The position numbers were made by a program, and so were the translations under genes. A DNA stretch of 64,000 bases from Rhizorhabdus dicambivorans (GTDB taxonomy: Bacteria > Pseudomonadota > Alphaproteobacteria > Sphingomonadales > Sphingomonadaceae): NCBI RefSeq assembly GCF_002355275.1, contig NZ_CP023449.1, forward strand, positions 3,450,001 to 3,514,000. Direction: 5' to 3'. Positions 5,931 to 22,548 of the stretch are shown here, piece after piece. The notes below the pieces were generated by a model, which saw nothing but the letters and a program-made list of their open reading frames with translations, had not been told where the DNA came from and did no database searches. Position 1 is the stretch's first letter. The number at the start of each line of letters is the position of its first letter.

Positions 5931-5966
5931 CAAATACCCCCGTTTTTGGCGGTATGAATCCCTGAC

Positions 5967-5979
5967 AGGGACTCGAACC
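5967..5979. repeat. tRNA T-arm-like 13-mer shared with the right element end
   Basis: AGGGACTCGAACC occurs here and at 22203-22215; on the reverse strand it reads as a TPsiC arm (GGTTCGAGTCCCT). No tRNA body is present around either copy, so these are displaced fragments or att remnants rather than tRNA genes. Confidence 0.4.
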
Positions 5980-5981
5980 TG

Positions 5982-7178
5982 ATGGCGCTGACAGTATTGA
6001 AAGTGAAGAACGCGAAGCCCGGTCGCCATGTCGATGGCAGGGGCTTGTGCCTCGTCGTGAAGCCCAGTGGCGCGCGCACCTGGGTGCTGCGCATGCAGTT
6101 GAAAGGCCACCGCCGCGACTATGGGCTGGGATCGGCGCATGATGTTTCGCTGACCGATGCCAGAACAGCGGCAGCGGAATTGCGCCGCCGCGTTCGTGAC
6201 GGTTTCGATCCTGTCGCCGAGCGACGCAAGGCGCGGAAGGTCATACCGACCTTCGAAGCCGCAACCCGTTCGTGCCATGAAACCTTGGGTGACGGATGGA
6301 AAGACGGGCATCATTCCCGCTGGCTATCCGGTTTCGAGCGCCACCTCTTTCCGCGCATCGGCAAGAAGCCGGTCGACAAGGTGGACAGCGCCTGCGTGGT
6401 CGAGGCGCTGTCTCCAATATGGCTGGAGATACCGGAAACGGCGCGGCGCTTGCTCCAGCGCATCGGCGTGGTGCTCGATTTCGCGCATGTGAAAGGCTGG
6501 GTGCCGGAAGAGGTTTCCTTGCGTTCGGTGCGCAAGGGCTTGCCCCGACAGAACGACAAACGCGGCCATATGGAGGCCATGCCCTATGCCGATGTCCCGT
6601 CACTGATGAAAAAGCTTGCCACTGCAGCCCAGACGACCGGACGCGACGCCATGCGCTTCACGATCTACAACGCCGTGCGGTCCAACGAGACGCGCCTTGC
6701 GGTATGGACCGAGTTCGATCTCGAAAAGGCGGTATGGACCATTCCCGCTGAACGGATGAAGGCAGGCGAAACCCATGTGGTGCCGCTTTCGGCACCGGTT
6801 TTGGCATTGCTTCGCAAACGCTGGGCCGAGCGGACCAGCGATGCGGGCTTGGTTTTTTCCAACGACGGGAAGAAGCCGATCAGCGACATGACCATGACCA
6901 AGCTTCTGCGCGACGATGGATTCGCGAGCATCACCGTGCACGGCTTCCGATCCACCTTCACGGACTGGGCCGCCGAATGCACCGACTTCCCCAAGGAGGT
7001 CGCTGACAAGGCGCTCGCCCACAAGCTACCCAACAAGGTCGAAGCCGCCTACCGCCGAACCGATTTCTTCGAGAAGCGTCGGAGCCTGATGAAGCAATGG
7101 GCTGACTATCTGGGCAATAGCGCCTCGGCAGCGAATACGGCGACAGCCGAGCCTATTCAGGCTCGCGCTGCCGCATGA
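5982..7178 (+). CDS. P4-type tyrosine integrase 2
   Basis: A 398-residue tyrosine recombinase of the DUF4102 family, clearly distinct in sequence from integrase 1. N-terminal arm-binding domain: HVDGRGLCLVVKPSGARTWV at 16-35. Catalytic residues: R233 in NAVRSNETRL, H320-xx-R323 in HGFRSTF, H347 in LAH, nucleophile Y357 in AAYRR. The start lies directly against a tRNA T-arm-like sequence, as usual for P4-type integrases. It is the presumed recombinase of the 5776-22205 element. The C-terminal 20 residues are low-complexity and overlap the convergent HTH gene by 26 bp. Confidence 0.95.
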   Translation: MALTVLKVKNAKPGRHVDGRGLCLVVKPSGARTWVLRMQLKGHRRDYGLGSAHDVSLTDARTAAAELRRRVRDGFDPVAERRKARKVIPTFEAATRSCHETLGDGWKDGHHSRWLSGFERHLFPRIGKKPVDKVDSACVVEALSPIWLEIPETARRLLQRIGVVLDFAHVKGWVPEEVSLRSVRKGLPRQNDKRGHMEAMPYADVPSLMKKLATAAQTTGRDAMRFTIYNAVRSNETRLAVWTEFDLEKAVWTIPAERMKAGETHVVPLSAPVLALLRKRWAERTSDAGLVFSNDGKKPISDMTMTKLLRDDGFASITVHGFRSTFTDWAAECTDFPKEVADKALAHKLPNKVEAAYRRTDFFEKRRSLMKQWADYLGNSASAANTATAEPIQARAAA

Positions 7179-7347
7179 CCAGCTCGTGCAGACTGGCAGT
7201 CGTGATACGGGTCGACTTACCGAGCTTGATGGCCTCGATCTGGCCCGACGCAATCAGCTCGTAGAGTTTGGTGCGACCGACGCCGATCATGCGCGCAGCG
7301 TCATTGACCTTCACGCAGATCGGCTCGACCGAAGGCGGCGCTGTCAC
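7153..7347 (-). CDS. Small excisionase/AlpA-like HTH protein C
   Basis: A 64-residue HTH_17 protein: VKVNDAARMIGVGRTKLYELI (helix-turn-helix, quoted in part) and IEAIKLGKSTRITTASL (wing). It converges on integrase 2 and follows the AlpA-like gene with an ATGA overlap. Probable directionality factor or regulator of integrase 2; similar in layout to gene A next to integrase 1. Confidence 0.75.
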   Translation of the reverse strand: MTAPPSVEPICVKVNDAARMIGVGRTKLYELIASGQIEAIKLGKSTRITTASLHELVMRQREPE

Positions 7348-7550
7348 AGCGCCGCGCTCTCATTCCGGTACGAGACCGGATCATCGATCCAGCGGTTCAC
7401 AGCGGATTCCCGCCAGCCCGCGCCGTGAACGCTGATCTTCACCTGAGACGGGAAAGTCCCCTCTGCGATTTTGCGATACATGGTGGAGCGGGACAGGCCG
7501 GTGCGGGCGAGAACGGTCTTGAGGCGGATGATTTTGTCAGTGTTGGACAT
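7344..7550 (-). CDS. AlpA-family phage-type regulator
   Basis: A 68-residue protein starting MSNTDKIIRLKTVLART. The pattern RTGLSRSTMYRKIAEGTFP, then WRESAVNRWID is the AlpA/Prophage CP4-57 regulatory fold, which in P4-like elements activates integrase or excision genes. I choose the ATG at 7550 because family members begin about ten residues before the RLK motif; upstream codons look non-coding. It is the first gene of a two-gene operon with protein C. Confidence 0.8.
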   Translation of the reverse strand: MSNTDKIIRLKTVLARTGLSRSTMYRKIAEGTFPSQVKISVHGAGWRESAVNRWIDDPVSYRNESAAL

Positions 7551-7921
7551 GGGACTTGCTTCCATTCGTTGGCAGTTACTGGTTGCCCCTGACGCAAGAA
7601 TTGATTGTCCAAGTGCTTGGCGCAAGGCAGTTTCCGAGCAGACAGGTCCACATCGCAATCCCGGATAGAATGAAAAAGAGAAGGATAGGCACGGCTACGG
7701 ACGGATAGAGAAGGTCACGGACGCCAACACCGTGCGGCCTGAGGCGGCGAGTTTTTTGCCATTCCCCGGCGGAGAAGCTGATTCACCTACCACGACTGCT
7801 CCAGTGACGGAGATTTGCGCAAGCATCGACGGCGTTTGCGCGCGAATCGCGCAGATATTGGTTCAGCTTGGTGCGCAATCGAGTTCTGGCCTTTCGGGCT
7901 GCCGATTGGCATGTTTCCCAG
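7551..7921. other. Intergenic region between AlpA-like and phosphoribosyltransferase genes
   Basis: 371 bp containing the divergent promoters. A 76-codon plus-strand frame at 7732-7962 overlaps the next gene in another frame and has no recognised features, so it is not called. No tRNA or repeat was found. Confidence 0.4.
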
Positions 7922-8689
7922 ATGACCAATACTTTGCCGATCCGACTTCCCTGGCCACCTGACTTCCCCGATGTTGTCATTCATACCGATGTCCGCACCC
8001 GTGACAGGCATCCCGGCTACGCTGCCGCCAAGGCGGGGGATGCTGAGGCGGCTCTCCTGCTGGCATCCGATCTACTGTCGCCAGATGGAATAGTGAGTCT
8101 TCAGGAGATTATCGGCAATCGGCCTACTCTGCTCCTGCCGGTCGTGGCAGACGAGCTAGCGGGCTTCAACGCGATCCCCGATGCGATGGCGCAGGTGTTG
8201 GGCAACGAACTTGGCACCCCCGTCATCGCCGGTGAAATCGTTCAGACAAACAAAGTCGGCCATACCCGCGCCCCGGCGTTTCAGCGGCTGGTCACCCCGG
8301 CAACGTTCGAAGGGCAGGTGCAACCGGGTGCAAACTATGTGCTTGTTGACGATCACGTCGGCCTTGGCGGCACTCTCGCCAACCTGCGCGGTTACGTCGA
8401 GGCACGGGGCGGAGAGGTCATCGCGATCACGACCCTGACCGAGAGCCGGGACGCACGCATAATTTCATTGCAGCCCGCAACCCGAATTGTGCTATGGGAG
8501 CGGCATGGCCAAGCACTTGACGACCTCTGGCAAAGCCAATTCGGCTATGGGATCGACTGCCTCACGGAAGTCGAAGCCCTCAACCTATGTCGTCAGCACT
8601 CCGTTGCCGCCATCGAGGATTTCTTGGCTCAGGCAGCAGTCGAAGCACGTGGCCGAGGTCTCCAGACAGCGGTTGAGCCAGGCCACTGA
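7922..8689 (+). CDS. Phosphoribosyltransferase-domain protein
   Basis: A 255-residue cytoplasmic protein. The centre carries the PRPP-binding loop of type I phosphoribosyltransferases, YVLVDDHVGLGGTLANL (near residue 140), with hydrophobic strands before and after it and an ITTLTESRDA strand. The N-terminus has a separate conserved-looking segment (RTRDRHPGYAAAKAGDAEAA), which may be a small helical domain. Known enzymes of this fold join a base to PRPP or carry out regulatory chemistry; the base here is unknown. I choose the ATG at 7922 rather than an upstream codon because the preceding residues look random. It leads a plus-strand group with two small nuclease-like genes, inside mobile-element cargo, so a role in DNA conflict is more likely than housekeeping salvage. 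Confidence 0.75.
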   Translation: MTNTLPIRLPWPPDFPDVVIHTDVRTRDRHPGYAAAKAGDAEAALLLASDLLSPDGIVSLQEIIGNRPTLLLPVVADELAGFNAIPDAMAQVLGNELGTPVIAGEIVQTNKVGHTRAPAFQRLVTPATFEGQVQPGANYVLVDDHVGLGGTLANLRGYVEARGGEVIAITTLTESRDARIISLQPATRIVLWERHGQALDDLWQSQFGYGIDCLTEVEALNLCRQHSVAAIEDFLAQAAVEARGRGLQTAVEPGH

Positions 8690-8706
8690 CTGAAGAAATC
8701 GAAAAT

Positions 8707-9498
8707 TTGCATAGTCGCGGTCGATGCGGCGATGATGGCAAAGAATCTCCGTTGAGTTTGGCAGGGTTTCTTCCCGGTGTTCCAGTCGAACATGTCTTGA
8801 ATCGATTTGCCGCTGCTGGCGGAAACGAAATTGGGTCCGGGAAATTTCAGAGTCCCGAAAGTTCCGCCGCACTCGCGGTTAACTGCTTCGGTTGGTTCAT
8901 CTTGCACCCATCGCGCTTCCCCTTCCTTCCGGGGATCGATACCCACCATCCTGTCGAAATGGTGGATGTCGAGTTCACCGCACGCTTCCCGTGGGCGGGC
9001 GGACGCCATCCGTGGCTGGATGCGGTTGTTCAGACGCCAAGGATGCTGATCGGGATCGAAAGCAAGCGGTTCGAACCCTTTCGCGACAACAAATCCGTTT
9101 CGCTGTCCTCAGCCTATGACCGCCCGGTTTGGGGAAACAACATGCGCCGTTACGAGGACATGCGCGACAAGCTGCGATCTGGAGAGGCATCATTCCGCCA
9201 CCTCGACGCGGCCCAGTTGGTCAAGCACGCCTTTGGGCTTGTGACGGAAGCTGGACGACGAAACCGGAGCGCCGCACTTTACTACATCTTCGCGGAGCCA
9301 GCCTCTCGGGAAGGCAAAGCCATACCGGATAGCGATCACGCGAGACATCGGCAGGAAGTAGCGGATTTTGCCTCTGCCGTGGACGGCGACGATGTGCGCT
9401 TCCAGGCCGGAAGTTATCGGGAATGGATCTCGACCTGGCCTCACGATGACGAAATCCAAGCACATGGCCGAGCCATCCTTGCGAATTTCGCACCATGA
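8707..9498 (+). CDS. Putative PD-(D/E)xK nuclease
   Basis: Up to 263 residues. The segment MVDVEFTARFPW, then HPWLDAVVQTPRMLIGIESKRFEPF has the Asp...Glu-x-Lys arrangement of restriction-endonuclease-like nucleases (D in LDAVV, E and K in IESKRFE), and resembles PGN_0703-type putative endonucleases. A C-terminal motif FRHLDAAQLVKHAFGL follows. No ATG precedes the conserved region; I use the TTG at 8707, but TTG codons at about 8752 and 8758 are equally possible. It overlaps the next gene by ATGA, so the two nucleases are co-translated. Target specificity cannot be predicted. Confidence 0.65.
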   Translation: MHSRGRCGDDGKESPLSLAGFLPGVPVEHVLNRFAAAGGNEIGSGKFQSPESSAALAVNCFGWFILHPSRFPFLPGIDTHHPVEMVDVEFTARFPWAGGRHPWLDAVVQTPRMLIGIESKRFEPFRDNKSVSLSSAYDRPVWGNNMRRYEDMRDKLRSGEASFRHLDAAQLVKHAFGLVTEAGRRNRSAALYYIFAEPASREGKAIPDSDHARHRQEVADFASAVDGDDVRFQAGSYREWISTWPHDDEIQAHGRAILANFAP

Positions 9499-10178
9499 GC
9501 GCTGCAAGTTTGCCGCGCACGGTGACGGCGGCAGAGATAGCACGGACTGCGGGCATCGATCCGAAAACCTTCCGTGCAGCACTGAGGCGAGCAAACCTCA
9601 AATGGCACGCGCACTACGAAAGGTGGGAAGTCCCGTTTGGCAGCGCCGAGCATCACGACATGAGCGACGTGCTGGCATCGCTCACGCTGTCCGGAAAGCC
9701 CGCGCCGACATCACTTCCGCGCACCCGCTCCCTTCAATCAGCGCCACGCGGAAGCAGCGATGAAACATGGATTATCGGGCTATGCGATGAGGTGCTCGGG
9801 GAACAAGCCATCCGCCAGCATCGGTTCCCATTCCTGACTGGCGATCCGGGCGCGACTGGACGAAGATCACCGCTACCGGTCGATGCGTTTTATCCGGCGC
9901 GAAAACTTGTCATCGAATTCCACGAAATCCAGCATTCGCAGCCAGTTGCGCATTTCGACAAGCGTCAAACGGTGTCAGGGGTGTCACGCGGTGAACAACG
10001 GCGCCACTACGATGAGCTTCGACGCAAGGTGCTTCCCCAGCATGGAATAGACATTGTCGTTTTCGACTATTCCGAGTTCGAACACACCACCGCAGGCCGC
10101 TTGCGACGCACCAGCCGAGATCGCCAAATCATCGCAGAGCGGCTGCATTGCTATGCCAAGCCTAGAAACGGTGATTGA
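9495..10178 (+). CDS. Putative Vsr/restriction-like endonuclease with N-terminal HTH
   Basis: A 227-residue protein. An N-terminal helix-turn-helix-like segment (TAAEIARTAGIDPKTFRAAL, residues 11-30) is followed by a nuclease-like core: HRFPFLTGDPG, then LPVDAFYPARKLVIEFHEIQH, then a basic helix RRHYDELRRKVLPQHGIDIVV. The D...V-I-E-F-x-x-x-Q-H pattern resembles the VSR-like group of the PD-(D/E)xK superfamily. It is translationally coupled to the preceding nuclease and converges on the DUF262 gene with a 17-bp overlap. Function as a nuclease is inferred from motif spacing only. Confidence 0.6.
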   Translation: MSAASLPRTVTAAEIARTAGIDPKTFRAALRRANLKWHAHYERWEVPFGSAEHHDMSDVLASLTLSGKPAPTSLPRTRSLQSAPRGSSDETWIIGLCDEVLGEQAIRQHRFPFLTGDPGATGRRSPLPVDAFYPARKLVIEFHEIQHSQPVAHFDKRQTVSGVSRGEQRRHYDELRRKVLPQHGIDIVVFDYSEFEHTTAGRLRRTSRDRQIIAERLHCYAKPRNGD

Positions 10179-12402
10179 TGTAATCGGTAATCGCCGCGCC
10201 GCTTAACTCGGTGGTGGCGTTCCCGCCGCGAACGAAGAGCCGTTGCTCCTTGCCGTCCTTGAGAAAGGCGGCTTTCGGACCAGGCTCGCACCTGACGATG
10301 AGAACCCGCTCCCCTTGCTGGTCATCGAAGTGCGGATGGACATAGGGCAGAAAAACCTCGCCGATCCGATCCTTGATGAGATTGACGAGGTGCAGTCCCA
10401 TCTTGTCCTCGTTTGGAAAACCGTCGGCGCTGATCCCGAGAACTTCACCATCATCAGCAACTCCGATGAGCAATGTGCCGCCCTTGGCGTTCAGGAACCC
10501 GGCAATCGTCTTGAGCGCCGACAGATGCATCTTTTCGTCGGGCTGGCCCGTGTGCAGATTGATGCGGAGCGTTGACTTGAACTCGACGGCACCAGTTTCG
10601 CCGCCCGCAATCAGCTCAGCGACTGAGGGCGGTGAGACGGCCTCGATGGCTGCGTCACCGCGCAGCCGCTCCCATGCGCGCCGGACGACCTGCGCCATGC
10701 GAAGGCGGCGCTCGACCAGGAATTGATCGTAGGGCAGTTCCCACCAGAGGTGCGGCAGGGCGTGCAGACCGTAAACACGCTCCCGTTCCGCAGCCGTCAT
10801 CTGGACATCGAGCGCCGGGACATATTCCGCCGGGGGCTGCTTCCCGATCTTGATGTTGTCCGGCCATTCAACCGGCGCGAAATTGGCAATTTGATTGATC
10901 AGCTTCAGATCGGTGACGCCCTGAGCTTCGAGATAGGCACGCGGGAACAGATGGTGCTGTTCCAGCGATGCTTTCGATCCCTTGATCGCCGGATCAACCA
11001 TGGCCGCAAGTTTGAGCGGGCTGAAAAGCGCGGGCGCATCGAGCATGATGAGCGAGGCCTGATAGGCGAAGAGCGTCGGGCTGCGCGCCGCCGATGTCGC
11101 GAGCTGACTGGGCAGCGTGATTTCCCAGTAATCATTGGTCAGCGTCGTATCGCAAATCTCGCGGAGTTTCGCGACGAACACTTCACCACTTGCCAGATCG
11201 CGGACCTGGCCAAGATCGGCTTCGAACCGGGTTTCGGGGGAACTTGTATATCGCCCCGTCATCGATGCCATGTAATAGAATTCGGCGATGGCCTGCCGCA
11301 TCCGGGTGCGGTCGATACCGTAGTCCCGAATGCCGATGAGGTAGAGCACATAGCTGAAGATGATGGCCGCTTCCGAGCTGACCATCTTCTGCCCACGGTA
11401 TCCCGCCAACTTGAGCGCATCGAGAAAATGGTGCCAGTTGGCGAGGTTCAGGACTGCTGTCTGTGCCTCGCGCATCAGGGTGAACTGCCCCTCGCGCTTG
11501 TCTGGATTGTCAACGCCGGTCGCGGCGTCCTTGCCACGCAACGCGCTGTAGACATTGGCAAGCCTCGCCCGCTTTAGGGCCAGCCCCACGGTGGCGCGTA
11601 GCATCTGGTCCGGCGAAGGCTTGATGAAATGGTTGTAAGGCGACGCCTGCCCTTCGCTCGGCACGGTAGCCTGAAGCGAGAAGTTCTCCAGCTCGACCCG
11701 GCCATCTTCCCAGAAAACCGACATCAGCGTCATAATGAAGTCGGCCTGGTTGAGCGCCTTGCCCTTGCCGTTGATGCGCACGAACACTTCGGCGATGGTT
11801 TCCTCATCGACCGACGACGCCAGTGTCAGCGCGACGAAATTGTAATTCGGCAGATTGCGAAGATGGTCGATGGCATCTTCGATGGCTGTTTCCTCTTCCT
11901 CGGAAATCTCGCGGATTTCTTTGAGTTGAGAGAGGAACGCCTTGCGGAACGCGCCAGCCTTGAAGTCCGGCCTCCACAGCACCGAGATGTCCGGGATGAA
12001 GGCCCGGTCCTTCTTGATGGCCGCATCGGCCACGTCGAAGCGGCCAGACAGCGGGTTGAACGCTATCTGGATACGCTCCTTCTTGAAGTTGGAACGGAGG
12101 ACTTCCATCCCCTTCACAACCGCATAGAGCGAAGTCAGGCGCTGCTGGCCATCGACAATCGCCAGTTCCGGCACCGACTGTTTCGGGCCGGTGCCAATGC
12201 TCTTCAGAGCTCCATCTGCGCCGGTCTTCCAGAACAGCAGAAAACCGGCGGGATAACCGCGATACAGGGAATCGAAGAGATCACGGACGTTGACGTTCGG
12301 CCAGACGAAAGGCCGCTGCAATTCCGGCAATCCGATCTTTCCCATATCGATGTCTTCGATCAGGGACGAAATCGGAACATTACTTGTCGTGAAGATTGCC
12401 AT
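10162..12402 (-). CDS. DUF262-HNH-AlbA_2 (Schlafen-type) fusion protein
   Basis: A 746-residue multidomain protein. Residues 10-230: DUF262 (GmrS/ParB-like NTPase fold), with LPELQRPFVW at 25-34 and the catalytic DGQQRLTS at 84-91. Around 479-490 SLEQHHLFPRAY is the His-rich beta-beta-alpha (HNH, DUF1524-like) nuclease motif found in GmrSD proteins. The C-terminus from about 595 is an AlbA_2/Schlafen AAA_4 domain: GETGAVEFKST at 601-611, GGTLLIGV at 641-648, RLFVRGGNAT at 721-730. GmrSD proteins are NTP-dependent type IV enzymes against modified phage DNA; the added AlbA_2 module is found in several defence and tRNA-nuclease proteins. It is the last gene of a minus-strand group with the type IIG enzyme and the exported protein. 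Confidence 0.85.
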   Translation of the reverse strand: MAIFTTSNVPISSLIEDIDMGKIGLPELQRPFVWPNVNVRDLFDSLYRGYPAGFLLFWKTGADGALKSIGTGPKQSVPELAIVDGQQRLTSLYAVVKGMEVLRSNFKKERIQIAFNPLSGRFDVADAAIKKDRAFIPDISVLWRPDFKAGAFRKAFLSQLKEIREISEEEETAIEDAIDHLRNLPNYNFVALTLASSVDEETIAEVFVRINGKGKALNQADFIMTLMSVFWEDGRVELENFSLQATVPSEGQASPYNHFIKPSPDQMLRATVGLALKRARLANVYSALRGKDAATGVDNPDKREGQFTLMREAQTAVLNLANWHHFLDALKLAGYRGQKMVSSEAAIIFSYVLYLIGIRDYGIDRTRMRQAIAEFYYMASMTGRYTSSPETRFEADLGQVRDLASGEVFVAKLREICDTTLTNDYWEITLPSQLATSAARSPTLFAYQASLIMLDAPALFSPLKLAAMVDPAIKGSKASLEQHHLFPRAYLEAQGVTDLKLINQIANFAPVEWPDNIKIGKQPPAEYVPALDVQMTAAERERVYGLHALPHLWWELPYDQFLVERRLRMAQVVRRAWERLRGDAAIEAVSPPSVAELIAGGETGAVEFKSTLRINLHTGQPDEKMHLSALKTIAGFLNAKGGTLLIGVADDGEVLGISADGFPNEDKMGLHLVNLIKDRIGEVFLPYVHPHFDDQQGERVLIVRCEPGPKAAFLKDGKEQRLFVRGGNATTELSGAAITDYINHRF

Positions 12403-12459
12403 TGATTACCCGCCATTCGAAAAATCAGGTCAAGACATCGGTTCTGTCCAACACAATGT

Positions 12460-13509
12460 CTAGAACATATCGTCGTCGATTGCCGGCTTCTTCGGATCGC
12501 CCGAGTTATTGGCTTTGTCCGCCTCCATCTTGGCCGCAACCTGCTCCAACTGATCGCCTGCAACGTTGTTGAAGAACCGCAAGGAGTCGGACTTGCCGGG
12601 GCAATGTTCCCCACGAATCGACATGCGACCTGCGTCCCACCACCGATAGGTGCAGCCCTTCTCGCTCGACCGTTCGGAACGGCCATACTCGGCATCGAGC
12701 AGCCCAATGAAGCGTTCATAATCGGCTGTCGATTCAAGGATGTAATCCGCCCGCAGCAAATGCCGGACGAAACCTTCGATGACGACTTCCCTGACGCCGC
12801 CAAGACCGACGGGCGGGGACAGCGTCCATTTGGGGAAGGATTCGCCGGTATCGTTGCTCGCAAGCACAGCGGAGCCGCGCCCCTCGAAGGCAGCCACGAT
12901 GCCATACACATCGGTCGAGATCGGGCTGACGCCCGCGAGCTTCACGCCGGTCGATGGATAGTCGACCACGGTAATGCCATAAAGACCGTTCCACAGGCCC
13001 TTGACCCTGTCGTCCTCCCCGAAACTCTTGGTGTCACTGACGATGGCCGCCATTCCCTTGTCCAGGATCGAGGTGAGCGTCAGGCGCGGGCCGGTGAAGC
13101 CGAAGCTGATCCTGTCACGGTAGGCCACGTTGCCCGCCGAAAACTTCTCTCCGTCGCGAAGATCGCGCAAGCCGCACCGTCGCAGCACGTTGAGATCGGT
13201 CATCCCGAGCGAGAGCACCAGCAGGTGAATGCCCTGCCCTGGCTCCCGGATGAAATGGATGTGAACTGTCTCGAACTTGTCAGGCGTCGCGGGATCGTCT
13301 TCGCACACCCATTTGGCGCGGTGGGCGCTGTCGGTAGACTGGCGCGCGCAGCCGGTGAGCGCGGCGACCGTTGGCGCGAGCTTTTCGAAATCGCTTTCGA
13401 ACCGGGGCGTGATTTGCGGCAGGCTGCACCAGTTCATGGCCTGCGCAGGCACCGCCGATACCGCCGCTGCCAGACCAACCAACGACAAAAACGCGCCCCT
13501 CATCCCCAT
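12460..13509 (-). CDS. Exported protein of unknown function embedded in the restriction operon
   Basis: A 349-residue protein beginning MGMRGAFLSLVGLAAAVSAV, then PAQA/M: a clear Sec signal peptide with an AxA cleavage site near residue 24. The mature part has several cysteines (WCSLP, TGCARQ, WVCEDD, RRCGL, KGCTYRW, EHCPGK), possibly paired in the periplasm, and no family I recognise. An acidic tail (KPAIDDDMF) ends it. AGGAG precedes the start; an alternative ATG at 13503 has better spacing. It sits 13 bp after the type IIG gene and 57 bp before the DUF262 gene, all on one strand, so a periplasmic protein shares an operon with cytoplasmic DNA-targeting enzymes, which is unusual. Confidence 0.75.
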   Translation of the reverse strand: MGMRGAFLSLVGLAAAVSAVPAQAMNWCSLPQITPRFESDFEKLAPTVAALTGCARQSTDSAHRAKWVCEDDPATPDKFETVHIHFIREPGQGIHLLVLSLGMTDLNVLRRCGLRDLRDGEKFSAGNVAYRDRISFGFTGPRLTLTSILDKGMAAIVSDTKSFGEDDRVKGLWNGLYGITVVDYPSTGVKLAGVSPISTDVYGIVAAFEGRGSAVLASNDTGESFPKWTLSPPVGLGGVREVVIEGFVRHLLRADYILESTADYERFIGLLDAEYGRSERSSEKGCTYRWWDAGRMSIRGEHCPGKSDSLRFFNNVAGDQLEQVAAKMEADKANNSGDPKKPAIDDDMF

Positions 13510-13522
13510 TCACTCCTGCAAC

Positions 13523-16500
13523 TCAATCCCGGATATCCGCATCGGGTTGCCCGGCCATCAGCGCGTTGATCCACAGCAGCGCCAGTTCGGGGCTGCGGTA
13601 TCGGCCTGAATAACGGGCGCGCTCTTCACGCTCGACAGTCGGGAAGGTCGAATAGATGTAGCGAATATCTTCGCGCGATTTGACCGGGTTCGCGGCATCC
13701 CAGACGCCGTAGAGAATGAAGTAGAGCGCATCGAGCTTCGCCCGGAGCATGCAGCGGCGTTCCTCGTCCCACGCAAACGGTGGCTTCACCTGCCCAGCGC
13801 CATCCACGTGCCCGAGATCACGGGCGAAGGGTGCCAGATCATGGGCCGTGTATGACAATTCGAGCACCGCCTGACGCACGATGTCCGATGCGGATTTATC
13901 GCCAATCTGGCGCACATATGCGTCGGGCGGAATAACCGGTATCTGGGCTACAATGTACTTACTCAGGTGGCGGCTCTGGATCTTCTGCCTTGCGAGATAA
14001 TCGGCAAAAATCGACGCCAAGTTACCTTGCAGAAGCGCCAATAAGTTAACGTCTGCGCTCTTCCCAGAAAGCAAAGGTAGTGTGTTGCCGTAAGCACCGC
14101 GAGGTACAATTGCACTTATCAGGCTACGATAATTATTTGTATTGCAGACATCATTGAATCCAATTGCGTAGTCAAATTCTGGATCGGCATCTTCTTCAAG
14201 AATCCAGTATCTTGGAACCGGAAGAAAATCCGGGTCTTGGAGTTGCTCGTCGCTACTGTGGACGGGGACACCCTGACCGCTAATGGATGTGGTCTGCCCC
14301 CGAACCCCTGCATAGCGGTGATTGTAGATTGAGACCATTTTGCCTTCGCAAAGTCGCAACCAACGGCCCTTTGCAGATTGATACTCCCCGGCATCGATTG
14401 GCCAAGCACCCTCTTCCTCGACCAGCATGTTCGCTGTCCGAAAGCCCCTGCTTCGGCTCGTCATGTTGACCATCTGTTGATACTTGAATGGGTAGACTGA
14501 TCGCTCGGTTCGGCCCTGACCTTCGATGAGAATAGGAAATTGATCGTAGGCCTTTGTCAGCAGTCGAAGTCCATCTGTGGTCCGAAGGATTGGCATAGTT
14601 CCGGTGTTCGGGTTCAGCCGCTTCAACGTCGCCTTTGAGAACTGCACTGGCTGCGGCGCATTTTCATCCGTCGGAAGTTGGTGCAGCTTCACCGCATACT
14701 CGAATTTCGTGAACGACCTCGCGTCTCCACCGACAACGAAGACAGTTGGCTGGTCCTCAGCGTGGACATCTTCAAACAGCCAATGGCGACGATTTTCGAA
14801 CGCAATGAAAGCGCGCAAATGGTCTGCGTCAGTAACCCGTTGAATGAATTCTGATACATTGTGATCGGTGCCGATGCCGATAGGAGTAAGGACTCCCACC
14901 ATACCTTTACTTCCGATCATCTGGAGAGAACGCTCAACGAAAACCTTGTAAATGTTGAGTTTCCCAGAGTTCAACTCGGAATATATCTTGCCCGTCCGAA
15001 CGACTCGGGATGCCTGCTGCCGCCGCTCCTGCGCCTCATTGTATTGACGCAGAAGATCAGGCCGTAGCTCCTTCAGCGCAGCGATCATGTCTTCTCGCTT
15101 GGCCTTTAGCGGCTCGCGAGCAATTTCAGGATCACGTGCCGCAAACCAAGGGACTTCCTCGAATTCGAATCTATCCCAGGGCGGATTGCCGACGATGGCA
15201 TCAAAGCCGCCCTTGCGTTCCCCGCTGGCCCAGTCCTGCCACACGCCCGGAAAGGCAATCTGCCAGTTGAGAAACCGCTCTTCCTCGATCAGTTGGCGGG
15301 CGTTGCGCCATATTTCGGTGAAGGCTTCGACTTCTGCCGGGCGTGCCTTGCCGCCTTCCGGTTCCTTGCGACCGCGCGCAATGGGGATGGCATCGCCGAA
15401 GCGGCCATCGAGCCACAAGCGCACTAGCGCCTTCCCGTCCTTGTCGAGATTGAGCCAGTCCAGCGCGTGCATGAAGCTGACGAAGCCATCCAGCTCGCCC
15501 GTCATCAGCTCGACATCCTGCCACATGGCAGCGGAGCGGTGAGCCTCGGCAATCTCGGCGTCGGTCAGCGCTTCGATGGTCTTCATCGCCTCGGCACTGC
15601 GCTGGGCATTGCGCAGCGCCTCGTTCCAGAGCAGCTCGCCACCCAGCTTTGCCGCCTTGTCGATGGCATCGCGGACCCACAGGCCGAACAGGCTGTCACC
15701 GCACCGCAGGTGATGGTCAATGAAGGATAGGGGCGCGCCGACGGTGAAGGTGTGCAGCCACAGCGCGACCTTGGCCAGTTCCACCGCCATCGGGTTCTTG
15801 TCCACGCCATAGACGCAGCGCTTCAGCACCATGCGGCGCACGATGTGGCGATCATCGAGCTGGGATTCGTCAATCGCCCAGCCCTCTTCACGGGCGTTCT
15901 TCAGGATGGTGCGGCGGATTTCGCCGATCCTGTCAGCCAGTGGGCTGGCGTAATCAATACCTGCCTGTTCCGCCGCAGCCGAGGCTTCGGCCATGGCTTC
16001 CAGCACCTTGTCGGCCATGAGATCGACAAGACTGACCAGAAAGTGCCCGGACCCCATCGCAGGGTCGCAGACACGCAGCCGCAGGATGGCTTGTGCCGGA
16101 TCGGCATCGCCCAGTTCGGCCCGGACATAATCTTCCGCATCGCCCTTCCTGATCCGGCCAATCGCCGCCACGAAACCGGCGTTCGCATCGGCGAACAACG
16201 GCTCAAGCGTCTTTTCCAGGATCAGGGTGACCAGTTCGTCGGGTGTGTAGTAGCTGCCGCTGTTCTTTCGCGCGAAGGCATTAGGCCGGACAGCGATTAC
16301 GTCGTCCTCGCGAACCACCTCATGCTCCAGCAGTCGCTCGTAAATCGATCCGAGCTGCTGGACGGTAAGGTCGCGATAATTGATGTAGCGCCGATCACTG
16401 CCTTGCCGTTCGAACGAAAGCTTGTCGATGACCGGGGCAAGGACGCTGTCCGGCAATCGAACCTGGTCAAGCAGCGGGGTATTGGCGGGCGCGAACAGGC

Positions 16501-17590
16501 CGCCGTTGTAAGGCGGAATGCCGATGGAAGCATCACCCCGATCAACGATCCGGGACAGGTCGGCAATCCGGCTCCAAATCTGCGATGCAGTTAGGGAGAA
16601 CGCATCGCCGCGCCCCATGCGGTCGCCGACTTCGAGCCGCTTTGGCCGAAGCGCATAATCATCATAGCCGTCGGAGTTGACCGGCAGCAGATCACGATCT
16701 TCGGCATAAAGGAGAAACAGCAAGCGATAGAGCAGGACCAGGGAAGCGTCGCGCACTTCCTCCAGCGGCGTCTGGGGCGATGCCCCCGCAACCGCCGTGG
16801 TCAGCGCAGGGAAGATTTCATCGAAAACGAGCTTGGACAGCGACTTGGCGACGCGCTCTTCATAGAACGCAGCCTCGGCCCGAGCGCGTTCGTGAAAGGA
16901 GCGGCCATCGGCACCGGTCTTGGCGAACGCGGTGCGCGAAAACACTGCCGCGAAGACTCGCAGGGCATGGTCGCGCGCATCATCATCGCTGGCGGTTTCG
17001 TCGCGGACATCGAGCGCAAGTGCACCAGCGAGATCGACCTCCAGAAACTCTTCACTGACTGACCGCGCGCCCGCCCAGTAGAGCCGCCAGCGTGAGCCAT
17101 TGGTGAGGATGCCCCAACGTAAACCATGCTCGCTGTTGTCACCGATGCGGCGGAGATAGCGCAGCATCTGGGTGGAAGGCGCGACCGCATCTTCGCGTCC
17201 CACCGCACGATCCAGCGGCCTTGCCCAGCGCTTGCTCTCGACAACGGCAGCGCCATGTTCGTAGCGACGCCATTCCTCCGGCTGGGCATTGGCGCGATCC
17301 TTGGCGTCATCGTCAATGAACAACAGGCCATCGGGAACGTCGAGTCTGCCACCAGCGGAGAGATTCTGTTGCCTCAGGCTCTCCGACCAACCCAATTCGG
17401 CAAGAATTGGCCAGATGAAATCATCTTCCGTCTGGCTTTCGTTGGGCGATGATTCTCGCGGGAATCGGTCCGCGATAGCGATCAGGGCAGATCGAAGCGC
17501 ATCAACATCAACCGCCCGGTATTCGGTCGATTGCCGGATGGCTTCTTCAAGATAATCAGTCGTTAGGAACGATCCGGCGAACAAATGCAT
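13523..17590 (-). CDS. Type IIG-like restriction-modification enzyme (Eco57I-type methylase fused to nuclease)
   Basis: A 1355-residue single-chain enzyme. The N-terminus carries a type I/II R-like nuclease motif: D84 in GGRLDVPDGLLFID and E118-x-K120 in AAVVESKRW. Helical linkers follow, then an N6-adenine methyltransferase domain with the SAM-binding loop DPAMGSGHF at 509-517 and the catalytic GNPPW at 801-805. The last 400 residues are expected to hold the target-recognition domain and specificity (for example RHLSKYIVAQIPVIPPDAY). One polypeptide thus could both methylate and cut DNA. It is the first gene of the minus-strand group that also has the exported and DUF262-AlbA proteins. No separate specificity or R subunit is present. 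PglX of BREX is similar in methylase architecture, but no other BREX gene is nearby. Confidence 0.9.
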   Translation of the reverse strand: MHLFAGSFLTTDYLEEAIRQSTEYRAVDVDALRSALIAIADRFPRESSPNESQTEDDFIWPILAELGWSESLRQQNLSAGGRLDVPDGLLFIDDDAKDRANAQPEEWRRYEHGAAVVESKRWARPLDRAVGREDAVAPSTQMLRYLRRIGDNSEHGLRWGILTNGSRWRLYWAGARSVSEEFLEVDLAGALALDVRDETASDDDARDHALRVFAAVFSRTAFAKTGADGRSFHERARAEAAFYEERVAKSLSKLVFDEIFPALTTAVAGASPQTPLEEVRDASLVLLYRLLFLLYAEDRDLLPVNSDGYDDYALRPKRLEVGDRMGRGDAFSLTASQIWSRIADLSRIVDRGDASIGIPPYNGGLFAPANTPLLDQVRLPDSVLAPVIDKLSFERQGSDRRYINYRDLTVQQLGSIYERLLEHEVVREDDVIAVRPNAFARKNSGSYYTPDELVTLILEKTLEPLFADANAGFVAAIGRIRKGDAEDYVRAELGDADPAQAILRLRVCDPAMGSGHFLVSLVDLMADKVLEAMAEASAAAEQAGIDYASPLADRIGEIRRTILKNAREEGWAIDESQLDDRHIVRRMVLKRCVYGVDKNPMAVELAKVALWLHTFTVGAPLSFIDHHLRCGDSLFGLWVRDAIDKAAKLGGELLWNEALRNAQRSAEAMKTIEALTDAEIAEAHRSAAMWQDVELMTGELDGFVSFMHALDWLNLDKDGKALVRLWLDGRFGDAIPIARGRKEPEGGKARPAEVEAFTEIWRNARQLIEEERFLNWQIAFPGVWQDWASGERKGGFDAIVGNPPWDRFEFEEVPWFAARDPEIAREPLKAKREDMIAALKELRPDLLRQYNEAQERRQQASRVVRTGKIYSELNSGKLNIYKVFVERSLQMIGSKGMVGVLTPIGIGTDHNVSEFIQRVTDADHLRAFIAFENRRHWLFEDVHAEDQPTVFVVGGDARSFTKFEYAVKLHQLPTDENAPQPVQFSKATLKRLNPNTGTMPILRTTDGLRLLTKAYDQFPILIEGQGRTERSVYPFKYQQMVNMTSRSRGFRTANMLVEEEGAWPIDAGEYQSAKGRWLRLCEGKMVSIYNHRYAGVRGQTTSISGQGVPVHSSDEQLQDPDFLPVPRYWILEEDADPEFDYAIGFNDVCNTNNYRSLISAIVPRGAYGNTLPLLSGKSADVNLLALLQGNLASIFADYLARQKIQSRHLSKYIVAQIPVIPPDAYVRQIGDKSASDIVRQAVLELSYTAHDLAPFARDLGHVDGAGQVKPPFAWDEERRCMLRAKLDALYFILYGVWDAANPVKSREDIRYIYSTFPTVEREERARYSGRYRSPELALLWINALMAGQPDADIRD

Positions 17591-17648
17591 CAGGACGGAC
17601 TAGCAGCCAATTCCGTGTCGTTCCACGAAAGGTTTTCCACCAGTGCGC

Positions 17649-17960
17649 CTATGAGCTGCTTTCTGCTTCGAACGCTCGCTTGCCCTTCCGCTTCCACAGC
17701 AGCAGCGCCTGATCCCGTTCTTCGCCCCGGAGCTTGGCTGCGACCGTGAGAAACGCGCCGTAGAGCGTGGCACGATCATCGTCCGCGAGTTCGACCAGTC
17801 CCGCCTTCACGACCAGGCCGCCCAGTTCGATCAGTTGCCGCGTCCGTTCTCGCCGCTTGACCTGCCATTCGCGCATGTCGGTTCGTGCCTTCGCTGCCTC
17901 AAGCCGATGCCGCGCCGCCGTCAAGCGGGAGAGTGCCATCCGGCTGGCCTTGAGGTCCAT
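17649..17960 (-). CDS. traD: Conjugal transfer protein, TraD family
   Basis: A 103-residue basic helical protein with the segment RRERTRQLIELGGLVVKAGL characteristic of the small Ti-plasmid-type TraD. It overlaps the preceding TraC-like gene by 62 bp in another frame. I choose the ATG at 17960 because upstream codons in this frame are Arg/Pro-rich shadow sequence. In Ti-type systems TraC and TraD are oriT-binding accessory proteins of the relaxosome, transcribed divergently from traA, which is the layout here. No coupling protein TraG follows. Confidence 0.8.
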   Translation of the reverse strand: MDLKASRMALSRLTAARHRLEAAKARTDMREWQVKRRERTRQLIELGGLVVKAGLVELADDDRATLYGAFLTVAAKLRGEERDQALLLWKRKGKRAFEAESSS

Positions 17961-18204
17961 CGCCACGCTTGCGCGCCTTGCTCTGAAAGAAGGCCGCGCC
18001 CCGCTTGCGCCACGCCTCCTTCCGTTGGGCTTCGCTGGTTTCCGCGACGACCAGCAGCGCTCCGGCCAGCGTTTCCGCATCGGTCGCATCGGCCCCGGTA
18101 GCGATCACCAGTTCGCCGAGCTGCTGCACGCGGCGTTCCTTCAGTTGCTTCGCCTTGTCGGCGAGCGCCTTCAGTTCCGAATCAAAGTCTCGTGGTTTGC
18201 GCAT
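17899..18204 (-). CDS. traC: Conjugal transfer relaxosome accessory protein, TraC/TraD family
   Basis: A 101-residue protein beginning MRKPRDFDSELKALADKAKQ: charged coiled-coil N-terminus, then VQQLGELVIATGADATDAE, related to the TraD/TraC family of small relaxosome proteins. GGAGAA precedes the ATG at 18204. Its promoter must lie in the 172-bp gap to the divergent traA, which also contains the predicted oriT. Assignment to TraC rather than a second TraD rests on gene order. Confidence 0.75.
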   Translation of the reverse strand: MRKPRDFDSELKALADKAKQLKERRVQQLGELVIATGADATDAETLAGALLVVAETSEAQRKEAWRKRGAAFFQSKARKRGDGPQGQPDGTLPLDGGAASA

Positions 18205-18316
18205 CGAAGTTCTCCATTGAGAGGCGATGCGCTGATGATAATATCGATGCTCTCCCAATGCTGTAGAGTCGTCGAGACGGCCTGACACTGGATAGTCCCG
18301 AGCAGGATTTTATCAT

Positions 18317-18347
18317 GGGAGGGCGCGCTTATACGTCGTGCCGACGT
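18317..18347 (-). other. oriT: Predicted origin of transfer (oriT), RSF1010/Ti nic family
   Basis: On the minus strand 18333-18320 reads TATAAGCGCGCCCT, differing at one key position from the TAAGTGCGCCCT nic core of IncQ and Ti-type MOBQ origins. Directly adjacent is the inverted repeat ACGTCG-TGC-CGACGT (18333-18347), the hairpin position seen in those origins. It lies between traC and traA, as in Ti plasmids. Nicking has not been shown; sequence and position fit well. Confidence 0.7.
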
Positions 18348-18376
18348 CGCGCTCATGGCGTAGATGGATTGCCGTC

Positions 18377-21262
18377 ATGGCGATCTTCCACCTCTCCGTC
18401 AAAGTCATCAGCCGGTCGAGCGGGCGCAGCGCCGTGGCGGCAGCGGCCTATCGCGGGGCCGAGCGGCTGCACGACGAACGGCTCAACCGTGACCATGACT
18501 TCACCAACAAGGACGGCGTCGTCCATTCCGAAGTGCTGCTGCCGGAAGGCGCGCCAGAGGAATTTGCCGACCGCGAAAAGCTCTGGAATGCCGTCGAGGC
18601 TGCGGAGAAACGCAATGACGCGCAGCTTGCCCGCGAGGTCGAATTCGCCATTCCGCGCGAGCTCACCAAGGAACAGGGAATCGAGTTGGCGCGCGAGTTT
18701 GCCGAGGCCGAGTTCGTCGAAAAGGGCATGATCGCCGACCTCAATGTCCATTGGGATATTGGCGCGGACGGCCAGCCCAAGCCCCACGCCCATGTCATGC
18801 TCACCATGCGCGAAGTCGGCAAAGACGGGTTCGGCGCGAAGGTGCGCGACTGGAACAAGGCCGAACTGGTCGAGCAGTGGCGCGAACGCTGGGCCGAGCA
18901 TGTCAACCAGCGCCTGGCAGAACTCGATATCGACGCGCGGATCGATCACCGCAGCCTGGAGGCGCAGGGCATAGCGCTGGAGCCGCAGGACAAGATCGGC
19001 CCCGCCGCATCGCGCATGGGCGTGCGCGGGCTTGAGGCAGAGCGGATCGAGGAACACCGCGCCGTCGCGCAGCGTAATGGCGAGCGGATTATCGCCAATC
19101 CCAACGTCGCGCTCGACGCGATCACGCACAGCCAGGCCACCTTCACGGGCCGCGATCTGGCGATGTTTGTGCATCGACACAGCGACGGGAAAGAGCAGTT
19201 CGATTTGGCGATGAGCGCGGTTCGCGGATCATCCGACCTGATCGCACTGGGCAAGGACGGACGCGGCGAGGAGCGGTTCACATCGCGCCAGATGATCGAA
19301 ACCGAGCAGCGGCTCGGTCGCGCATCGGAATTGCTGGCAGAACGCGAGCGGCATCAGGTCGAAGATCGTGGCCGGGAAGGAGCGCTGGCGCGGGCAGCGG
19401 AACGCGGCTTGATGCTGTCCGGCGAGCAGCGTGCGGCGTTCGAGCATGTGACCGACGGGCGCGGCCTCAGCGTTGTCGTCGGCTATGCCGGGACCGGCAA
19501 GAGCGGGATGCTGGGCGTGGCGCGCGAGGCGTGGGAAGGCGCAGGGTATACCGTTCGCGGTGCAGCGCTGTCTGGCATCGCCGCCGAGGGGCTGGAGCAC
19601 GGTTCGGGCATTGCCTCGCGCACCATTGCCAGCCTTGAGCACCAGTGGGGCCAAGGCCGCGAATTACTCACGTCCCGTGACGTGCTGGTGATCGATGAGG
19701 CAGGCATGGTCGGCACACGCCAGATGGAGCGCGTCCTCTCCCATGCCGCCGATGCGGGTGCGAAAGTTGTCCTGGTTGGCGACCCGCAGCAGCTCCAGGC
19801 CATCGAAGCAGGCGCTGCGTTCCGGTCGATCCACGAACGGCACGGCGGCGTCGAAATCAGCGAGGTTCGCCGCCAGCATGACGGCTGGCAGCAGGACGCC
19901 ACGCGGCACCTTGCTACCGGGCGCACCGGTTTTGCCATTCAGGCCTACGACGAACGCGGCATGGTGCACGCCGCCGAAACGCGGGAGGCCGCACGCGGCG
20001 AACTGATCGAGCGCTGGGATCGTGACCGGCAGGCCAGCCCCGGCGATACGCGAATCATCCTCACCCATACCAACGACGAAGTGCGGGAGCTCAATGACGC
20101 GGCACGAGAAAAGTTGCGAGCCAGTGGCGAGCTGGGCAACGACGTGTCGATCAGCGCGACACGCGGAGAGCGTCAGTTCGCCAGCGGCGACCGCATCATG
20201 TTCCTGCGCAATGAGCGGGGCCTGGGCGTCAAAAACGGCACACTCGGCACTGTAGAACAGGTGACGCCGCAGCGCATGGCCGTGCGCACCGACGATGGCC
20301 GCAACGTGGCTTTCGACACCAAGGATTATGCGCATATCGATCATGGCTACGCCGCCACGATCCACAAGGCGCAGGGCATGACCGTGGACCAGGTGCATGT
20401 GCTGGCGACACCGGGCATGGACAGCCACGGTGCCTATGTCGCGATGTCCCGCCACCGTGACGGCCTCGCCCTACATTATGGGCGCAACGATTTTGCCGAT
20501 CAGTCGAAACTTGTCCGTACGCTGAGCCGCGAGCGTGGCAAGGACATGGCCTGCGACTACAAGCCCGAGCAGCAGTTTGCCGAACGGCGCGGGATCACCT
20601 TCCGCAAGCGTATCGTGGAGATTGCGAGGCAGTTGCCGGAGCGCGCGAAGTCGATCTTTGCTGGCTTCCGCCCTCAGGCCAACCGGCTCGAACCGCTGCC
20701 CACCGAACAGGCTGGCCTGTCCGATCAGCGGCGGGCGGTCGAACGCTATGCGCGTGCCGCCGCTGACATCGGGCAGATGCGCGAGCAAGGATTGCCGGTC
20801 CTGCCACATCAGAGCGACGCGCTGGAGAAGGCCGGAAAGGCGCTCGACGCGATCCGGCCCCATGGCACAGCCGACCTCGCCAGCGCCTTGCAGCGCCAGC
20901 CCTCGCTCGCCCGTGAGGCCGCCGATGGTCGCAGCCAGGGTGCAATCCGCGCCATGCAGCTCGAAGCCGAAATCCGCGTCGATCCCGCGCAGCGTGCAGA
21001 CCGCTTTGTCAGCGACTGGCAGCGGCTTGGGCAGGCGCGCCAGGTCATGCAGCGCGATGGCGACAGCAAGGGCGCGCAGAGGCTCACCAACCGCATGACG
21101 GATTTGGTGAAGGGGCTGGAGCGCGACGCGCAGGTCGAATCCCTGCTGCGCAGTCGCACCCGCGAGCTTGGCATCAAGACAGAACTCGGTCGCGATCTGG
21201 CCCGCGACCTTGCCGCCTCCATCTCGATGGAGCGGAGCCGGTCAATCGGCATGGGCCTGTAG
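18377..21262 (+). CDS. traA: Ti-type TraA relaxase-helicase (MOBQ)
   Basis: A 961-residue relaxase. Residues 1-220: MobA/MobL domain with catalytic Tyr25 in AAYRGAER and the metal-binding histidines H125, H137 and H139 (NVHWD, KPHAHVML). Residues 330-750: RecD-like superfamily 1 helicase with Walker A GYAGTGKS at 369-376, Walker B VIDEAG at 438-443, GDPQQLQA near 468 and the C-terminal motifs HKAQGMTVDQVHV and YVAMSRHRD. It nicks oriT and unwinds the strand for transfer. I start at the ATG at 18377 (MAIFHLSVKVISRSSGRSAV), the family N-terminus. No type IV secretion genes are present, so the element is probably mobilisable with help rather than self-transmissible. Confidence 0.95.
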   Translation: MAIFHLSVKVISRSSGRSAVAAAAYRGAERLHDERLNRDHDFTNKDGVVHSEVLLPEGAPEEFADREKLWNAVEAAEKRNDAQLAREVEFAIPRELTKEQGIELAREFAEAEFVEKGMIADLNVHWDIGADGQPKPHAHVMLTMREVGKDGFGAKVRDWNKAELVEQWRERWAEHVNQRLAELDIDARIDHRSLEAQGIALEPQDKIGPAASRMGVRGLEAERIEEHRAVAQRNGERIIANPNVALDAITHSQATFTGRDLAMFVHRHSDGKEQFDLAMSAVRGSSDLIALGKDGRGEERFTSRQMIETEQRLGRASELLAERERHQVEDRGREGALARAAERGLMLSGEQRAAFEHVTDGRGLSVVVGYAGTGKSGMLGVAREAWEGAGYTVRGAALSGIAAEGLEHGSGIASRTIASLEHQWGQGRELLTSRDVLVIDEAGMVGTRQMERVLSHAADAGAKVVLVGDPQQLQAIEAGAAFRSIHERHGGVEISEVRRQHDGWQQDATRHLATGRTGFAIQAYDERGMVHAAETREAARGELIERWDRDRQASPGDTRIILTHTNDEVRELNDAAREKLRASGELGNDVSISATRGERQFASGDRIMFLRNERGLGVKNGTLGTVEQVTPQRMAVRTDDGRNVAFDTKDYAHIDHGYAATIHKAQGMTVDQVHVLATPGMDSHGAYVAMSRHRDGLALHYGRNDFADQSKLVRTLSRERGKDMACDYKPEQQFAERRGITFRKRIVEIARQLPERAKSIFAGFRPQANRLEPLPTEQAGLSDQRRAVERYARAAADIGQMREQGLPVLPHQSDALEKAGKALDAIRPHGTADLASALQRQPSLAREAADGRSQGAIRAMQLEAEIRVDPAQRADRFVSDWQRLGQARQVMQRDGDSKGAQRLTNRMTDLVKGLERDAQVESLLRSRTRELGIKTELGRDLARDLAASISMERSRSIGMGL

Positions 21263-21272
21263 GAGAAACGCG

Positions 21273-22541: not shown

Positions 22542-22548
22542 AAGCAGC

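Follow-up and report, generated by a model that had tools for sequence, protein, structure and literature searches.

A mosaic restriction cassette with a type IIG enzyme, an exported protein and a DUF262-HNH-AlbA protein on a mobilisable element of Rhizorhabdus dicambivorans

The question raised by a 16.4-kb integrative mobilisable element of Rhizorhabdus dicambivorans is whether three closely packed genes of its cargo—two for DNA-targeting proteins and, between them, one for an exported protein—represent one defence system or a set of parts brought together by exchange. The window, i.e. the whole stretch of 64,000 nucleotides that was analysed (contig NZ_CP023449.1, positions 3,450,001 to 3,514,000), contains the three as follows, in the order in which they are read:

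13523..17590, minus strand: type IIG restriction enzyme-methyltransferase, 1355 residues (Pfam Eco57I, PADLOC DrmMI and REase_MTase_IIG, motifs)
12460..13509, minus strand: exported protein, 349 residues, six cysteines, probable signal peptide at residues 1-24 (hydropathy, alignment)
10162..12402, minus strand: DUF262-HNH-AlbA protein, 746 residues, GmrSD/BrxU-like (Pfam GmrSD_N and SLFN_AlbA_2, phmmer and Foldseek match to BrxU 7p9k, motifs)

The cassette is a mosaic, and the evidence does not support one obligate system of three genes; the preferred reading, with a probability of about two in three, sees in it two complementary and separable restriction layers together with a lineage-specific exported envelope protein, all carried on a mobile cassette. 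The coordinates, the strand and the spacing of the genes (intergenic gaps of 13 and 57 bp) had been given in an earlier reading of the letters, here called the original prediction, and were confirmed by a check of the open reading frames (ORFs); likewise, its view that two of the genes are DNA-targeting by motif agrees with the Pfam domains and the intact motifs of both proteins. Common direction and tight spacing suggest a single transcript. A promoter scan stayed at about chance level (5 found versus 2.7 expected, standard deviation 1.8), terminator matches lay below the chance expectation, no Rfam element was found at the gathering threshold in 5000-23500, and a same-strand TraD-like gene (17649-18089) precedes the type IIG gene by 58 bp. 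Two candidate features were rejected, namely a conserved promoter belonging to the DUF262 gene itself, since the preceding stretch is not kept in the related genomes G342 and G116 and the promoter scan is near chance, and a coding role of the 321-residue ORF antisense to the exported gene, whose frame is broken by stops in the G342 relative, with the substitution pattern reversed.

Relatives of the type IIG enzyme were found in 29 of 397 genomes of the family (E ≤1e-50) and in 11 of 385 genomes of a class sample (E ≤1e-100), the own genome included in both cases and both searches being even draws from larger groups; on plasmids, 271 records matched at E 1e-10, eight of which were opened, and a search of viral contigs led to nothing. 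Neighbourhoods were taken from 20 of the 29 family genomes besides the own one and from all ten others of the class sample, leaving out G289, G064, G150, G221, G307 and G393 (all distant), G006 and G148 (carrying the 48% type of locus L055) and the second type IIG matches of G321 and G190; gene calls on unannotated loci are the longest ORFs. A strong match to the exported protein occurs in only two of the 29 genomes (G000 and G342), which speaks against the neighbours being tied to the middle gene, and a DUF262 match of at least 94% is confined to the same two, the 29% match of G194 lying on a contig other than that of its type IIG gene. The co-occurrence proposed as a check in the original prediction came out divided: close homologues of the middle protein stand between the other two genes at three of three loci (window, L002 and L042), but distant homologues in L098 and L099 occur without them in stretches of 7.6 and 19.9 kb.

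The close relatives show how the parts separate. In G122 the type IIG enzyme is kept (98% identity in residues 1-800) without the exported and the DUF262 genes, whereas G116 has a 94%-identical DUF262 gene on a stretch with neither a type IIG nor an exported gene; since type IIG and DUF262 genes are each kept without the other in close elements, they appear to be independent nucleases rather than an obligate complex. G342 retains the exported and DUF262 genes next to a type IIG enzyme with another recognition region in place of the window's, so these two genes seem not to be tied to the target sequence. The DUF262 protein thus occurs, at 94-95% identity, beside three modification partners—the type IIG enzyme of the window, its G342 version and a BcgI-like pair in G116—a natural experiment on whether type IV-like riders depend on their restriction-modification (RM) system. 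All three genes are under purifying selection, the ratios of nonsynonymous to synonymous substitutions (dN/dS) between the window and G342 being 0.14 for the type IIG gene (exchanged part included), 0.051 for the exported gene (synonymous divergence, dS, of 1.8, saturated; 0.113 against L002) and 0.020 for the DUF262 gene. Unequal ages of the genes, which their protein identities to G342 (74, 85 and 95%) might suggest, were rejected: the shared blocks are uniformly 77-78% identical in nucleotides and dS exceeds 1.2 in all three, so the differences reflect selective constraint and the exchanged recognition region.

The exchange is best seen in the type IIG enzyme itself, two parts of which are needed here:

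17231..17335, minus strand: PD-(D/E)xK nuclease motif of the type IIG enzyme, PD at residues 86-87 and ESK at 118-120 (33-row alignment)
14003..15174, minus strand: putative target-recognition region, residues ~806-1196, exchanged among relatives (nucleotide homology gap and drop of protein identity)

The protein matches Pfam Eco57I (E 3.7e-19) and the DrmMI and type IIG models of PADLOC, and in the 33-row alignment the motifs PD..ExK, DPAMGSGHF and NPPW are intact and in order. A nuclease motif, N6-adenine methylase motifs and a variable region behind the methylase, all in one chain, thus place it by sequence among type IIG enzymes. Compared with G122, G342 and G396, respectively, residues 1-800 are 98, 94 and 93% identical, residues 830-1200 only 32, 33 and 36%, and the last 126 residues again 90, 83 and 66%; by blocks of 100 residues, the identity to G342 and G122 is 92-100% in residues 1-800 and 27-42% in residues 800-1200. 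The nucleotide homology to G342 is interrupted over this region, with a nearly identical gap to G122 and G396. The segment swapped between relatives is therefore named a putative target-recognition region from its position and from the known anatomy of type IIG enzymes, no domain having matched there. In the relatives L010, L053, L054, L055 and L109, residues 830-1200 are 12-16% identical to those of the window and NPPY replaces NPPW; these proteins seem to carry another recognition half on a common N-terminal half.

Concerning the third gene, Pfam places GmrSD_N at residues 11-225 and SLFN_AlbA_2 at residues 602-733 of its product, while the HNH part has no Pfam match and was called from a DUF1524-type HH..N..N pattern that is kept in the aligned relatives. 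The motifs QR, DGQQR, FxxxN and HH..N..N are retained in the window protein and most of 14 chosen relatives, L127 departing most, and the AlbA part is present in six of the 14. DUF262 motifs followed by a DUF1524-type HNH (by pattern) are the signature of GmrSD-family type IV enzymes. BrxU (7p9k) is the top match of both phmmer and Foldseek, the fold being taken from a low-confidence AlphaFold model (predicted local distance difference test, pLDDT, 54) that was used solely for this match. The best PADLOC model is HEC-05, a label that we take to stand for embedded defence candidates. In L118 (6974-9106), an Euzebya plasmid, a DUF262 protein has RAMA in place of AlbA and lies near a gene annotated as a phosphorothioated-DNA-binding restriction endonuclease.

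The gene order, the motifs, the selection and the exchange of modules described above form the observed ground for the reading with two restriction layers, and the nuclease activities of both proteins are those expected from their families. The type IIG chain would act alone: its C-terminal recognition region would specify the target in which it methylates adenine, and incoming DNA that carries this target without methylation would be cut. The DUF262 part would sense modified or otherwise non-self DNA, nucleotide hydrolysis would license the HNH nuclease and AlbA would probably contribute nucleic-acid binding, so that this protein might catch phages that escape the type IIG enzyme by modifying their DNA; the two nucleases may travel together because they cover different phages. 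The exported protein, presumably soluble, disulfide-stabilised and located in the periplasm or at the outer membrane, might hinder the entry of phage or plasmid DNA, which is a guess, albeit the best one available. Given the separable modules, the motifs and the published precedents, two complementary layers are most likely, not an obligate machine. If the exported protein does block entry, this would be a restriction operon acting both inside and outside the inner membrane, of which searches of the open-licence literature showed no case.

In agreement with the original prediction, the exported protein has a probable signal peptide and lacks any known family: it begins with charged residues, continues with a hydrophobic core and has a cleavage-like AQA motif, no other segment is membrane-like (judged from hydropathy and motif, not by a dedicated predictor), and there is no match in Pfam, PADLOC or NCBIfam. 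Against PDB the single-sequence search gave E 0.88 or worse and the profile search nothing, and the best values against PHROGs are E 0.014-0.03. The close homologues, in L002 (98%) and G342 (85%), both stand directly behind the type IIG gene and ahead of the DUF262 gene, the latter truncated by the contig end in L002; the distant ones are those of L098 (28%) and L099 (30-31%). The cysteines 28, 54, 69, 112, 286 and 303 are invariant in five sequences, the relatives at about 30% identity included, and an N-terminal hydrophobic segment, with none internal, is found in the four sequences examined (mean hydropathy 2.25, 2.52, 1.92 and, in L099, 1.28). The family is thus marked by a signal-type N-terminus and conserved cysteines, the segment of L099 being only moderately hydrophobic. 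The gene is real, as shown by its dN/dS of 0.05 and by the six cysteines kept in relatives at about 30% identity.

Its distribution is narrow. Of the 397 family genomes 11 pass E 0.01, seven of which (E 0.0016-0.0056) were not counted as having homologues, and a close copy is present in two genomes, the own one included; the family occurs in one of 14 genomes of the genus, the own one, and in the class sample in the own genome besides one doubtful match (E 0.003). Searches for relatives on plasmids and in viral contigs led to nothing. The close form has so far been found solely with the type IIG and DUF262 pair, and from three loci of one lineage a function of the exported protein and its hitchhiking cannot be told apart. 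The alternative that survives best, although unlikely, is that the protein serves the mobile element, e.g. by entry exclusion or mating contact, and merely happens to be located in the cargo operon. It is exported and carried by a mobilisable element, and its distant relative in L099 is the middle one of three tight genes with exported-type starts; elements with a related 974-residue relaxase (G122, G396 and G116), however, lack it, and the distant relative in L098 is found among housekeeping-type genes on a 7.6-kb contig. The three tightly packed genes of L099 span 8340-11052, and within 5 kb of the relative there are a weak SIR2_2 match and an M.Eco57I-like methylase. It should be noted that the likelihoods given for two restriction layers, for service to the element and for an obligate system refer to partly overlapping readings.

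A further alternative concerns what follows the type IIG gene. The slot was defined by a same-strand gene of at least 200 residues starting within 60 bp of the type IIG end and was assessed in 38 loci, excluding L059 and L105, where the contig ends within the gene; L060 is a C-terminal fragment, and the near-identical rows L055/L056/L058, L101/L102 and L006/L007 were counted separately. It is occupied in 16 loci and without such a gene in 22. Its occupants are the exported protein (window, L002 and L042), PLD-like proteins (L005, L008 and L044; 46-49% identical to each other, Pfam matches under the curated cut-off) with a TIR-TPR protein behind that of L005, an ATPase (L006, match just under the cut-off), SIR2 followed by HerA (L009), NlpC/P60 (L010, from the record annotation), DUF4357 (L048 and L050, and L109 by similarity to those two), HEPN (L103) and genes without a Pfam family (L003, L049 and L052). 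A tree built from the constant part (30 rows) groups the window with L002, L041, L042 and L044 at a support of 100/100, and within this clade there are already three slot states—exported plus DUF262, empty, and PLD—so the partners change faster than the type IIG enzyme. The 3' end of the type IIG gene could be imagined as a site at which interchangeable effectors of a second line dock (PLD, PLD with TIR, SIR2-HerA, HEPN, DUF4357 and DUF262-HNH-AlbA), the exported protein being here a cysteine-rich periplasmic entry barrier and the whole a two-compartment defence on one transcript; taken in full, this is rather improbable. The diverse partners behind one conserved type IIG enzyme are in any case a source of candidate defence genes.

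An integrated system, in which self is marked by the type IIG enzyme, killing is done by the DUF262 protein, phage is sensed or blocked at the envelope by the exported protein and no component is dispensable, would fit the tight spacing, the order conserved at the three loci with a close exported homologue (window included) and the purifying selection on all three genes. It is nevertheless quite improbable, as 27 of the 29 family genomes with a type IIG enzyme lack a strong match to the exported protein, the DUF262 gene at 94% or more is limited to two of them, G116 has it without the other two, the recognition region has been swapped with the other genes unchanged, and the three trios represent one lineage, so that no co-occurrence in independent lineages was seen.

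No better founded is the idea that the DUF262-HNH-AlbA protein reads the mark of the neighbouring methylase and attacks unmarked DNA, for which SspE, a reader of phosphorothioate, is the model. DUF262 relatives at E ≤1e-20 were found in 16 of the 397 family genomes, the closest in G342 (95%) and G116 (94%); in the latter, the gene lies 34 bp behind a 667-residue N6_Mtase/HSDR_N protein and a 483-residue weak Methylase_S match in a BcgI-like layout. Among 11 full-length contexts, an RM or methylase operon is directly ahead in six (window lineage, L110, L115, L139, L141 and L143), the gap being 270 bp in the viral contig L115 (67% identity), where a cytosine methylase and Vsr precede the gene; moreover, L127 has type I genes 2.8 kb downstream and L138 a type IIG-like fragment 1.9 kb upstream. 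The chemistry and target of the neighbours vary, however, from adenine type IIG and BcgI-like adenine to type I-like and cytosine-5 modification, a 95%-identical protein is paired with a different recognition region, and L116 (47%), where a resolvase precedes the gene, has no recognised methylase ahead.

Six of the full-length relatives (L138-L143) are 24-28% identical to the window protein. L139, L141 and L143 have a type I-like operon that starts with an N6_Mtase match and includes an hsdR-like gene, which the DUF262 gene follows at a distance of about 90 bp; in L140 the DUF262 gene is preceded by genes without a match in any scan, in L142 by a gene for 1805 residues and in L138 by a resolvase-like gene. 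Some arrangements may be added in full: L139 (6787-15001), L141 (2-7714) and L143 (6745-14001) share their flanks and the row methylase, ~420-residue gene, hsdR-like gene (1077 residues) and DUF262-HNH-AlbA gene (715 residues); L110 (5024-10735), on a related element, has a BcgI-like pair and then the 94%-identical gene; and L115 (1837-10244) presents an HATPase gene, two unscanned genes, the cytosine methylase, Vsr and DUF262-HNH-AlbA. Relatives without AlbA occur in L111-L113 between hsdS and hsdR (hsdM-hsdS-130 residues-DUF262-hsdR). On plasmids, 26 records contain a DUF262 relative, and of the ten opened, seven (L118, L120, L121, L122, L125, L126 and L127) carry, within 7 kb, a gene annotated for restriction or modification—in L120 the DUF262 gene stands between methylase and specificity genes—and three (L119, L123 and L124) have none within that distance.

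Several of these observations weigh against two complementary layers with an envelope protein. No recognised RM operon lies directly ahead of the gene in five of the 11 contexts (L116, L127, L138, L140 and L142), and L139, L141 and L143, half of the six positive contexts, represent a single related arrangement. To our knowledge, AlbA is absent from the characterised GmrSD enzymes, and it might confer a different target, e.g. RNA. The close copies of the trio all belong to a single lineage of elements (n=3), the relative in L098 sits beside an M13 peptidase and a SurA-domain gene among the housekeeping-type genes, and AlphaFold gave no usable model of the exported protein (pLDDT 36), so that the role of this protein has to be argued from the signal peptide, the cysteines and the context. 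The weakest alternative, a chance insertion of the exported gene without function at the locus, would explain why a close copy is present in just two of 397 family genomes and the own one alone of 14 in the genus, but it is very improbable in view of a dN/dS of 0.05 over strongly diverged copies (dS 1.8, saturated) and six cysteines invariant at about 30% identity.

The cassette is, as originally predicted, cargo of a mobilisable element, for which the integrase, the relaxase, the TraD-like gene and the terminal repeats were found:

5776..22205, no strand: integrative mobilisable element, 16.4 kb, with 16-bp direct repeats ATGGTAGCGGAGGAGG at 5776 and 22190 (repeat search; G122 homology)
5982..7178, plus strand: tyrosine integrase of the element (Pfam Arm-DNA-bind_3, Phage_int_M and Phage_integrase)
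7868..10178, plus strand: convergent three-gene run in the same cargo slot (ORF calls and Pfam)
17649..18089, minus strand: TraD-like mobilisation gene (Pfam TraD)
18338..21262, plus strand: TraA/MobQ-type relaxase-helicase (NCBIfam TraA_Ti and MobQ; Pfam MobA_MobL)

Integrase, relaxase and terminal repeats define it as an integrative mobilisable element, and no secretion-system gene was present among the proteins scanned, which were part of the ORFs. Nucleotide homology to G122 spans 5774-22219, and the homologous element there has the identical 16-bp repeat at both ends, the right copy at a tRNA-Met gene. No tRNA gene was called in the window, the right end of the element included; the right end (22190-22260) nonetheless resembles a tRNA 3' end (GACTCGAACCC), and the tRNA-Met gene of G122 is intact there. 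The cargo comprises the genes from the integrase to the TraD-like gene; in related elements, which carry a TonB receptor in G122 and an AbiE pair in G342, it is not confined to defence. The convergent run encodes a phosphoribosyltransferase-like protein (weak), REase-ARP (PF22558, E 1.6e-8) and a 227-residue protein with a helix-turn-helix (HTH) and a nuclease-like C-terminus, the latter two also being present in G342 (72 and 66% identical); it is possibly a second defence system of the cargo slot. Just left of the element, a second tyrosine integrase (3916-5169, plus strand) and a small gene (5353-5658) possibly belong to a neighbouring element in tandem.

Compared with known systems, the cassette was rejected as a member of DISARM or BREX after PADLOC and NCBIfam scans. 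The methylase half resembles DrmMI of class 1 DISARM, and the PLD gene of some relatives gives weak DrmC matches, but in the window the nuclease motif is fused to the methylase and no other DISARM gene was recognised in the element: drmA, drmB and drmC did not accompany the methylase, the other five cargo proteins scanned had no PADLOC DISARM match, and the remaining large ORFs scanned are the integrase, the relaxase and TraD. As for BREX, PglX models reach 33.8 bits versus a cut-off of 500, and neither pglZ, brxC nor another core gene was seen among the ten proteins scanned.

The closer parallels are published systems, here cited by PubMed Central accession. Enzymes such as Eco57I and MmeI (PMC3874165) share the type IIG anatomy, with an N-terminal nuclease, a gamma-class methylase and a recognition part in one chain; the window enzyme differs in having 1355 residues, no companion methylase gene in the cassette and a variable partner slot behind it. 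GmrSD homologues are enriched beside type I RM systems, RloF and others standing between hsdS and hsdR (PMC4619093), and a DUF262-HNH gene in or beside an RM operon is also the arrangement of L111-L113, although the system is type I there and type IIG here, and the L111-L113 proteins lack AlbA. GrwAB (PMC12137116) is in line with these contexts, and PMC12255303 attributes to Payne and co-workers the concept that defences may be embedded within other systems. The BREX and BrxU island of pEFER (PMC8565348) likewise combines methylation-based defence with a GmrSD-type enzyme, BrxU being the nearest solved structure; its chain has 587 residues versus 746 here, and the abstract of that paper mentions no exported protein. 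In Vibrio cholerae VPI-2, TgvAB (PMC11411939) is a modification-dependent restriction system of the GmrSD family inside a type I RM locus, the two being thought complementary, but it consists of two proteins with type I RM, whereas here one DUF262-HNH-AlbA chain and a type IIG enzyme flank an exported protein. The layered anti-phage system of the original prediction is thus plausible for the two nucleases, with TgvAB and BrxU as precedents, and not as a three-part machine. No paper with the three-gene composition appeared in searches of the open-licence literature, and as far as could be found the claim that no such system has been described holds only on account of the exported protein: pairing the two nucleases conforms to a recognised pattern, and what is unusual about the cassette is the exported protein.

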